NCBI GenBank assembly: GCA_963205185.1
Contig: CAUJHZ010000035.1
Span: 1 to 64,000, forward strand
Direction: 5' to 3'
From: Planctomycetota bacterium
GTDB lineage: Bacteria; Planctomycetota; Phycisphaerae; Phycisphaerales; UBA5793
DNA length: 64,000 nucleotides
Part shown: positions 39,069 through 42,132 of the stretch, in pieces
How positions within the stretch are numbered: the first letter of the stretch is position 1
Layout of the letters: the number at the start of each line of letters is the position of its first letter
Notes under the pieces: generated by a model
Database searches by the model: none
What the model was told of the DNA's origin: nothing
Seen by the model: only the letters and a program-made list of their open reading frames with translations
Position numbers and translations under genes: made by a program

Positions 39069-40868
39069 ATGCATAAGAGACATCACCACATGGCTGCTGC
39101 GGTTCTGGCGCTGGGCGCGCTGGGCCTGAGCGCCGCCAGCACGGCCTGGGCGCAGGACGCGGGCTCAGTCAAACTGCGCGACAACCTCGCCGAGGTGCTT
39201 CGCCAGTCTCAGCCTGACGCCATGGTCCCGGTCGCGATCATCATGCGCGACCAGGCATCCCGCCAAGAGGTCGATCGCATCGCCCATTTGGGGGATAAAG
39301 ACTTCCGGCGGCAGGCCATGCGCGACCTGCTCAAGCCGCTCGCCGAGGCCTCGCAGGCGGACCTGCTGGCCGATCTGCGACGTGCAGAGGCCACCGGCGC
39401 CGTCGACCGGGTCCGCCCGTTGTGGATCCACAATGTGATCGGTTTGCGCGCCACCCCCGAGGTGATCGCGCAGATCGCTCTGCGGCCTGACGTGGCCTAC
39501 GTCCATTACGACCGCCCCTTGGGTGTGGAGGTTCTGCCCTTCGAACCCGGCACGGGCAACACGATCAGCGAGATCGAGTGCGGCGTCGACCTCATGGGCG
39601 CGCCGCTCGTGTGGAATGAACTCGGCTTCACCGGACGCGGCGTGGTTGTCGGCGTGATCGACACCGGGGCGTGCCTGACGCACCCCGACCTGCGCAACCA
39701 GGTCTGGACGAATCCCGGCGAAGTAGCCAACAACGGAATCGATGACGACGGCAACGGGTACATCGATGACATCAACGGCTGGAACTTCGAGAGCAACAAC
39801 AGCAACGTCGGCGATACGTTCGGCCACGGGACCCATGTGACGGGAACGGTGTGCGGCGACGGCGCGAACGGCACGCAGACCGGCATGGCCCCCGACGCCT
39901 CATTTATGACCCTCAAGTTCTGGAACTCCTTCTCCGGTGAGCAGTCGGTGTGGGACAGCATTCAGTACGGCGTGGACAACGGCGCACACGTACTCACCGC
40001 CAGCCTCGGTTGGCCGCATTCGACCAGTCCGGACCGCCCGACGTGGCGCACCGTGTGCGAAAACGCCATGGCGGCAGGTGTGGCCGTGGTGTTTGCGGCC
40101 GGCAACGAGGGCAACTGCTGCCCGCCGGTTGATTCGGTGCGCACGCCCGGCGACGTGCCGGACATGATCACCATCGGCGCGACGGACTGCAACGACAACC
40201 TCGCGAGTTTTTCAAGCCAGGGCCCCATTTCATGGACGGGCATCCAGCCCTGGAACGACTGGCCGTATCCTCCCGGAAAGATCAAGCCGACCGTCTCGGC
40301 GCCGGGCGTGAATACCAAGTCCACCTCTTCGAACTGCTCGGGCTACGAGATCTACAGCGGAACGTCTATGGCCACGCCGCACGTGGCGGGGACGATCGCG
40401 CTGATGCTCGAAGCGAATCCCAGCCTTGACCACTTCGCCATCAAGGATCTGCTCGAAGCCACGGCGCTCGATCTGGGCGACCCGGGCAAGGACAACCGCT
40501 TCGGCTCCGGCCGCGTCAACGCCTACGAAGCCGTGATCGCGGCGATGACCGGAGATCCGCCGATGCGGCTGGTCACTTCGCGATTCGTCGCGGGCGTAAA
40601 CGCAGACGCGGAAGTCTTCCGCGCCACGCCGGGCGCGACCGTCGCTTTCATCTACAGCATCCGCGGCACGGGCAGCACCTACGTGCCGCAGCTGGATGTG
40701 ACGCTGGACCTGTCTTCGCCGGCGCTCGCGGGCGTTCGCACGGCGGACCAGGACGGCTACGCGCTGCTCCGCAAGCGCGTGCCGCCCAACACGCAGGGCG
40801 TGCACGTCTGGATGCAGGCCGCCGAATTCCAGCGCAAGAGCAACGTGGTCGATCTGTTCATCGAATAG
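39069..40868 (+). CDS. Secreted subtilisin-like serine protease (S8)
   Basis: This 599-residue protease has a leader of about 29 residues (ending AWAQ), a propeptide to about 185 and an S8 catalytic domain with Asp198 (VVVGVIDTGA), His253 (FGHGTHVTGT) and Ser433 (YSGTSMATPHVAG). The stretch NNGIDDDGNGYIDDINGWNF is a calcium-site insertion seen in many environmental subtilases. After the domain, the last 100 residues form a beta module (from about VAGVNADAEVFRATPGATV) related to the end of the FG-GAP proteins at 6835 and 8862. AGGAGGAG lies before the ATG. A strong bidirectional terminator follows. Confidence 0.93.
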   Translation: MHKRHHHMAAAVLALGALGLSAASTAWAQDAGSVKLRDNLAEVLRQSQPDAMVPVAIIMRDQASRQEVDRIAHLGDKDFRRQAMRDLLKPLAEASQADLLADLRRAEATGAVDRVRPLWIHNVIGLRATPEVIAQIALRPDVAYVHYDRPLGVEVLPFEPGTGNTISEIECGVDLMGAPLVWNELGFTGRGVVVGVIDTGACLTHPDLRNQVWTNPGEVANNGIDDDGNGYIDDINGWNFESNNSNVGDTFGHGTHVTGTVCGDGANGTQTGMAPDASFMTLKFWNSFSGEQSVWDSIQYGVDNGAHVLTASLGWPHSTSPDRPTWRTVCENAMAAGVAVVFAAGNEGNCCPPVDSVRTPGDVPDMITIGATDCNDNLASFSSQGPISWTGIQPWNDWPYPPGKIKPTVSAPGVNTKSTSSNCSGYEIYSGTSMATPHVAGTIALMLEANPSLDHFAIKDLLEATALDLGDPGKDNRFGSGRVNAYEAVIAAMTGDPPMRLVTSRFVAGVNADAEVFRATPGATVAFIYSIRGTGSTYVPQLDVTLDLSSPALAGVRTADQDGYALLRKRVPPNTQGVHVWMQAAEFQRKSNVVDLFIE

Positions 40869-40896: not shown

Positions 40897-40930
40897 AAAG
40901 CCCCCGCCGAAGCGATTCGGCGGGGGCTTT
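40897..40930. terminator. Bidirectional terminator between subtilase and the selW operon
   Basis: A perfect 14-base stem (40897-40910 with 40917-40930) has a six-base loop. The arms start with AAAG and end with CTTT, so both strands get a short U-tract. It lies 28 bases past the subtilase stop and 22 bases past the selenoprotein stop, which supports a real gene end on the minus strand. Confidence 0.88.
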
Positions 40931-40952: not shown

Positions 40953-41177
40953 CTACGCGTAGGAACCCAACGCGTCGAGCAGTTTCGCGTGGTCGGGAAA
41001 CTCGCCCGTCTCGTGCTTGCTGTAAATGAGTTTGCCGTTCACGGTAACGTCAAAGACGCCGCCTGAACCTTCGATCAACTCGGCCTTGGCACCGAATCGA
41101 TTCCTGATTTCGTCCGCCAGACCGGCGGCTCGGGGGCGGTAGTTTCACATACCGCAGTACTTGATGGAAACCTTCAC
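40953..41177 (-). CDS. SelW/Rdx family selenoprotein, in-frame TGA read as selenocysteine
   Basis: Read from GTG at 41177, this gene encodes 74 residues with one TGA at codon 11 (41145-41147). Around it stands KYCGMUNYRPRAA, the CxxU redox motif of the SelW/Rdx family in its usual place after the first beta strand. After the TGA the frame continues with family features: LADEIRNRFGAKAELIEGSG, then GGVFDVTVNGKLIYSKHETG and FPDHAKLL, ending TAG. AGGAG lies six bases before the GTG. A hairpin with a GGUCU loop follows the TGA (41114-41128). The family has a thioredoxin-like fold and is thought to act in thiol redox. It ends the panB-to-map run. A Cys form would have TGC here; a simple nonsense mutation fits less well. 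Confidence 0.88.
41114..41128 (-). promoter_or_regulatory. Bacterial SECIS-like hairpin after the TGA
   Basis: On the minus strand, 21 bases after the TGA, CCGCC-GGTCT-GGCGG forms a five-base-pair stem with the loop GGUCU. The E. coli fdhF SECIS element, as I recall it, also presents GGUCU in its apical loop at a similar distance (about 18 bases) from the UGA, where SelB binds. The lower part of the element is not clearly paired here. Confidence 0.75.
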
Positions 41178-41183
41178 GTGCTT

Positions 41184-41188
41184 CTCCT
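41184..41188 (-). promoter_or_regulatory. Ribosome binding site of the selenoprotein gene
   Basis: AGGAG on the minus strand lies six bases before the GTG at 41177. It supports a real start in a frame that otherwise looks broken by the TGA ten codons later. Confidence 0.7.
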
Positions 41189-41285: not shown

Positions 41286-42092
41286 TCAGCCGACGATCAT
41301 CGGCAGTTCTTCGAGGCCCGCCGTGAGCACGCGCGGGCCCTGCTCGGTAACCAGCACGTCGTGCTCGTAGTGCACGCTCAGTGAGCCGTCGGCGGTGCGG
41401 ATGGGCCACTGCCGCGGCTTTTGCTGCATGCGGCTCGTGCCCGCGGCGATGATCGGCTCGACGGCGAGCAGCAGCGGGGGCTTGATGCGGTACTGCGCAT
41501 CGGGCCAATCGCCGGGATAGGCGGGTATCGCATTGGCCACGTGCGGCTCGGTATGCAGGCTGCGGCCGTAGCCATGCCCGCCCAGGCCGGTGACGCAATG
41601 AAAGCCGTACTCACTCTCGACGCACTGCTGCACCGTGCGGGCCCAGCGGGTAAGTGGGTAGCCGGGCTGCAACTGCTCGACGCCCCGCCGCAGGGCCTCG
41701 ATCCCGCACTCGCACAGGCGGATGGCTTCGTCGCTGCCCTGTTCGATGATGTAGGTCCAGGCGGCGTCGCCGATCCAGCCGTGGTAGACCACGCCGATGT
41801 CGATGGAAATCACGTCGCCGCGCTTGAGCGGCTCGAGCGACATGCCCGCGGTGCCGTGGACGACGACATCGTTGACGCTCAGGCAGGCGTGCGACGGAAA
41901 CGCGGGGTACCTGCCGGTGCGATAGCCGAGAAAAGCACTGCGCGACCCGAGCCGCGCCAGCGTCTCGCCGACGAGTCGATCGATCTCCCCCAGCGTCATC
42001 CCCGCGCGAAGCCGAGGCGCGAGGAACTGGTGCGTTTCGACGACGAGTTCCGCGGCCCGCGTCGCGTCGGCAATGTCCTGCTCGCGCAGCAT
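41286..42092 (-). CDS. map: Methionine aminopeptidase, type I
   Basis: This 268-residue enzyme removes the N-terminal Met from new proteins. All metal and catalytic residues are in place: His79 (VVHG), Asp98 and Asp109 (SIDIGVVYHGWIGDAAWTY), His173 (GLGGHGYGR), His180, Glu212 (AVEPII) and Glu243 (YEHDVLV). The Met at 42092 gives the usual N-terminus; the open frame further upstream is shadow of the preceding gene. It follows the gene at 42133 by 40 bases in the minus-strand run, with the selenoprotein gene 108 bases downstream. Confidence 0.95.
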   Translation of the reverse strand: MLREQDIADATRAAELVVETHQFLAPRLRAGMTLGEIDRLVGETLARLGSRSAFLGYRTGRYPAFPSHACLSVNDVVVHGTAGMSLEPLKRGDVISIDIGVVYHGWIGDAAWTYIIEQGSDEAIRLCECGIEALRRGVEQLQPGYPLTRWARTVQQCVESEYGFHCVTGLGGHGYGRSLHTEPHVANAIPAYPGDWPDAQYRIKPPLLLAVEPIIAAGTSRMQQKPRQWPIRTADGSLSVHYEHDVLVTEQGPRVLTAGLEELPMIVG

Positions 42093-42132
42093 CGTGTGCG
42101 ATGGTAGCGACCGCGGGGCGCCAGGCGCACAC

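Follow-up and report, generated by a model that had tools for sequence, protein, structure and literature searches.

The in-frame TGA of a planctomycete SelW-family gene is followed by what is almost certainly a canonical bacterial SECIS hairpin

The 64,000-nucleotide stretch of DNA analysed here (the window) corresponds to contig C35 in a genome assembly of 4.55 Mb and 76 contigs, and its minus strand holds a short reading frame that is interrupted by a TGA codon with a small hairpin just downstream. The question raised by this locus is whether the TGA is decoded as selenocysteine (Sec), with the hairpin as the element that directs decoding. On the basis of sequence comparison, we consider it almost certain that the hairpin is a canonical bacterial SECIS within the coding region of a SelW/Rdx-family selenoprotein gene, which we call selW. 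Such a gene would be overlooked or cut short by standard gene callers, and our analysis confirms selW as a selenoprotein gene of this kind. The gene is laid out as follows.

41184..41188, minus strand: Shine-Dalgarno AGGAG, 6 nt 5' of the selW GTG (from the sequence)
41177-41175, minus strand: selW start codon, GTG
40956..41177, minus strand: coding sequence of the SelW/Rdx-family selenoprotein, 74 aa (Pfam Rdx match; translation with TGA as U)
41145..41147, minus strand: in-frame TGA, the Sec codon, residue 11 (TGA at the same site in relatives)
40955-40953, minus strand: selW stop codon, TAG

Translation with TGA as Sec yields a protein that begins VKVSIKYCGMUNYRPRAAGLADEIRNRFG..., in which the translated residues C8-G-M-U11 form a CxxU motif near the N terminus. 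The protein matches the Rdx (SelT/SelW/SelH) family PF10262 with 76.1 bits (cut-off 22.6, E 2.6e-21), NF041051 with 90.9 bits (cut-off 88) and TIGR02174 with 62.5 bits (cut-off 34.2). It also matches by sequence solved structures of the Rdx/SelW type (2fa8, 2npb), selenoprotein W among them.

A TGA is a stop in the standard reading, and the codon could be a real stop or a decayed codon, in which case the downstream frame would be a pseudogene remnant and the hairpin a GC-rich coincidence. The distribution of the codon argues against this. In a scan of GTDB genomes with an alignment of six closer selW sequences as the query, TGA occupies the Sec site in all 80 best relatives, which carry labels from Planctomycetota, Gammaproteobacteria, Deltaproteobacteria, Acidobacteria, Myxococcota, Nitrospirae, Chloroflexi, Zixibacteria, Fictibacillus and others. 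The frame is kept in these relatives, and both TGA and frame are retained in all congeners. The best-named relatives are the uncultured planctomycetes Phycisphaerales bacterium UBA5793 and isolate PLA5. Plasmid relatives are distant (<60% identical) and were left out as controls, and a search of viral contigs found no relative.

Sampling of the phylum gives a similar picture. A SelW homologue is present in 143 of 392 sampled genomes, with TGA at the Sec site in 136 of the 143. SelB is found in 125 of the 136 genomes with a TGA-containing SelW, as opposed to 109 of the 256 others (Fisher p = 8e-24, n = 392). The 11 TGA-SelW genomes with no SelB match (G061, G149, G154, G189, G212, G281, G282, G302, G314, G338 and G349) are mostly incomplete bins, and SelB is therefore probably absent from them by way of missing contigs.

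The genome under study encodes a full Sec-decoding apparatus. The genes selD-selB-selA-selC lie in that order in a compact cluster within ~4.7 kb (G000 contig C45:5986-10645, locus L132), and this set of four is the one that defines the Sec-decoding trait. The cluster includes tRNA-Sec (selC) with anticodon TCA, SelA (match 3.6e-157), SelB (1.7e-105, with the SelB wing_2 and wing_3 winged-helix domains) and SelD (7.1e-104). The selD gene itself contains an in-frame TGA. Together, the sel cluster and the TGA-containing selD show that the organism bears the Sec-decoding trait and that its selenoprotein genes number at least two. Downstream of the selD TGA we note a hairpin, UUGCAC-AGGUU-GUGCAA, whose loop lies 31 nt past the UGA and has G at position 2. 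In formate dehydrogenase homologues, no internal stop was found.

This machinery, with the conservation of the codon and the stem covariation and loop codon bias described below, leaves a stop or pseudogene next to impossible. The same genes bear on a second alternative, namely that the TGA is read as tryptophan or suppressed by some other tRNA, with the hairpin serving as a general stimulator of read-through. Other organisms can recode UGA differently, but here tRNA-Sec, SelA, SelB and a Sec-containing SelD are all present, the presence of SelB tracks that of TGA-SelW, the hairpin fits the SECIS model, and Cys, not Trp, is aligned at the Sec site in the solved bacterial relatives. We judge this alternative very unlikely, and Sec decoding of selW remains our preferred reading.

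The hairpin has the following parts.

41114..41128, minus strand: SECIS hairpin CCGCC-GGUCU-GGCGG (covariation, synonymous null, energy -8.2 kcal/mol)
41128-41124, minus strand: 5' arm, CCGCC
41123-41119, minus strand: loop, GGTCT
41118-41114, minus strand: 3' arm, GGCGG

The first-pass annotation placed the stem 16 bases and the loop 21 bases past the TGA; its coordinates and counts are right, on the minus strand, with 16 nt between the TGA (41147-41145) and the 5' arm. A 2026 review that summarises the bSECISearch model (PMC13188914), from which we took our limits, allows a loop of 3-9 nt, a stem of 4-16 bp with at least one G at loop positions 1-2, a spacing of 16-37 nt after the UGA and an MFE <= -7.5 kcal/mol. 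The selW hairpin lies within all of these, with a 5-nt loop, GGUCU, on a 5-bp stem, the loop 21 nt past the UGA, and folding energies of -8.2 kcal/mol (isolated hairpin) and -9.5 kcal/mol (a 29-nt segment containing it). It fits the consensus loop N1-G-[G/U]-N-N2 with pairable N1 and N2 (G-U here, A-U in many relatives) and has no feature outside the model.

Taken singly, the sequence is less telling. Its fold is not significant relative to shuffles (z = -1.49 for a 41-nt stretch and ~0 for longer stretches), a point in favour of the stop or pseudogene explanation. Among synonymous recodings of the selW peptide, 19% form a perfect 5-bp stem whose loop has G at position 2, and 2% form such a stem with the loop GGTCT. 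Evidence beyond chance must therefore come from comparison of homologues. An Rfam search returned no family matching the selW SECIS. A covariance model of the SelW SECIS recovered the known site alone in this genome (E 9e-10); the next-best match, at 0.36, has no convincing TGA-containing ORF, and the scan is uninformative on SECIS elements of other gene families.

The hairpin lies over codons for the conserved residues A-A-G/S-L-A, and GC-rich genomes are numerous in the set, so that coding constraint alone on an Ala-rich segment could be proposed as the cause of stem conservation. Our comparison of 208 distinct TGA-containing SelW homologues weighs heavily against this explanation. Every one of the 208 keeps, in one register or another, a hairpin with no more than one mismatch (synonymous null 118 ± 6, maximum 132), and G stands at loop position 2 in all of them. 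The hairpin is in the selW register in 196 of 208, compared with 76 ± 5 for synonymous recodings, and the 5-bp stem is perfect in that register in 143, compared with 20 ± 4 and a maximum of 30. The homologues share descent, and these counts are thus of non-independent events; an effect of this size, spread over so many phyla, nonetheless makes a chance origin implausible. The first-pass annotation had held that the match is not just GC-rich noise, and the recoding results bear this out; a homologue that kept the TGA and lacked the hairpin, which would have told against it, did not appear.

Compensatory change in the stem, the other sign to be sought in homologues, is abundant. Among 51 diverse sequences, 95.3% of stem cells are paired and 43 changes are two-sided and keep the pair, a number reached by 0 of 500 shuffles. 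The covariation score is 0.577 versus 0.169 in shuffled data, and sliding the 3' arm to other registers gives at most 0.147. Across the 128 distinct hairpins that share the register, G is invariant at loop position 2. Stem pairs 1 and 2 never depart from standard pairing, and pairs 4 and 5 are standard in 99% and 97%. At pair 3 the figure is 78%, the remainder being A-C or U-C mismatches; it is in this single mismatch at the third pair that many planctomycete relatives differ from the bSECIS model.

Two silent third-codon positions that face each other in the stem pair in 157 of 161 Ala-Ala cases (C-G, G-C, G-U, U-A, U-G and A-U). Loop Gly is coded GGT in 61 of 65 cases and loop Ser AGT in 96 of 103 (157/168 combined); in the rest of these genes the two codons account for 146 of 1076 Gly (14%) and 41 of 522 Ser (8%), respectively. 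With the excess of perfect hairpins over synonymous recodings and the residue pairs considered below for codons 7 and 10, these data leave coding constraint by itself barely credible as the cause of stem conservation. The SelW SECIS, then, has been conserved in many phyla of bacteria, and its stem covaries clearly.

A stronger alternative fold that hides the loop would count against the hairpin, and one was found in the naked RNA. It uses the following arm.

41135..41139, minus strand: competing CCGCC arm, 6-10 nt past the UGA, pairing with GGCGG in free RNA (from folds)

When the 9 nt after the UGA are included, GGCGG prefers this upstream CCGCC, and the SECIS pairing probability is 0.12; with those first 9 nt masked, it is 0.98. 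Judged from ribosome footprints, roughly the first 9 nt past the UGA should be covered while the UGA occupies the A site. The alternative fold needs nucleotides 6-10 and should therefore fall inside the ribosome or at its edge. Of four congeners, L018 and L049 lack the competing arm, L048 has it weakened and L047 keeps it. Because the arm is not generally conserved among congeners, it looks incidental.

By analogy with E. coli, we infer the following course of events. A ribosome would reach the UGA and mask the competing arm, while the hairpin, 16 nt downstream, would stay outside. SelB, loaded with Sec-tRNA-Sec and GTP, would bind the apical GGUCU loop through its winged-helix domain and deliver selenocysteine to the A site, and translation would continue. 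The product is predicted to be a 74-residue thioredoxin-like protein that may use CxxU as a redox centre.

The loop had been likened to that of the E. coli fdhF SECIS, with the same GGUCU at a similar distance. The 48-mer that starts at the fdhF TGA was confirmed by exact match: it is found in 5,368 of 5,426 genomes, with annotated fdhF among the matches listed. The GGUCU core is indeed identical, and both hairpins lie in the coding region just past the UGA. The distances are close rather than equal (18 nt in fdhF, 21 in selW), the stem sequence differs, and fdhF, unlike selW, encodes formate dehydrogenase H. The shared GGUCU is typical of many bacterial SECIS elements and denotes no special link to fdhF.

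SelW-like selenoproteins with such hairpins have been described in the Sargasso Sea survey, where SelW is the most abundant selenoprotein family (PMC1088965), in bacterial genomes (PMC1794560) and in Epsilonproteobacteria (PMC4607533), and Sec use in planctomycetes has also been reported (PMC4807772). These known proteins share with selW the family, the CxxU motif, the in-frame TGA and a hairpin with a conserved loop G just downstream; the present host differs in being an uncultured planctomycete. The bacterial SelW SECIS is thus of a well-known kind, to which the present gene adds another case. Our literature search found no paper on this selW gene or on a phylum-wide set of planctomycete SelW SECIS elements.

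The RNA stem appears to steer the protein sequence at two positions. We compared the residues at codons 7 and 10, counted after the UGA, in 194 same-register homologues. The two positions restrict each other: T at codon 10 is confined to homologues with V at codon 7, E and G to those with S, M to those with I or L, S to those with D, and V to those with T, or with A by way of a G-U pair. Mutual information between the two codons is 0.448, compared with at most 0.178 in 1000 permutations, which ignore kinship, and the residue combinations largely preserve pairing in the stem. There were too few closely related Cys orthologues for a control set. We lean towards the view that the SECIS, and not a contact between residues, sets these pairs, and that a peptide-neutral slide of 4 nt gives a register that still functions. 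Amino-acid pairs that are apparently imposed by RNA present a hazard for the inference of protein contacts from coevolution, and the aligned set offers a clean example.

The register itself is mostly kept among homologues, though not in all. In at least 11 of them (L072, L088, L094, L095, L100, L101, L103, L235, L247, L260 and L267) the best hairpin is 4 nt nearer the UGA, with its loop at +17, and by eye L129 and L245 are shifted too. Most shifted loci encode the peptide A-V-S-L as GCC-GTG-AGC-CTG, not GCC-GTC-AGT-CTG, and this coding produces the hairpin CCAGGC-CGUGA-GCCUGG or a close variant. In L099, one extra codon displaces the hairpin and its loop is at +24. All of these hairpins are within the bSECIS limits on loop and spacing. 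Natural variants of this sort, including the A-C mismatch at pair 3, could define the tolerance of SelB in these bacteria.

Around selW, an ORF like type I methionine aminopeptidase (41286-42107, minus strand) lies directly upstream on the same strand, and a subtilisin-like protease gene (39069-40868, plus strand) converges with selW. Between the converging genes lies one further feature.

40897..40928, minus strand: terminator-like hairpin AGCCCCCGCCGAA..TTCGGCGGGGGCT, then a T-run (by eye)

This hairpin is strong and GC-rich with T-runs on both sides, and it looks like a bidirectional terminator shared by the protease gene and selW. Some planctomycetes carry a second SelW-like paralogue with Gly in place of Sec (CxxG; L112, L113, L115-L117 and L119), which does not have the conserved GGT/AGT loop pattern. 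Another paralogue, with the pattern CGYxxRAAxLAA (L271, L272 and L273, in genomes G335, G178 and G191), contains a TGA and carries a hairpin of its own, of the same type as the selW SECIS.
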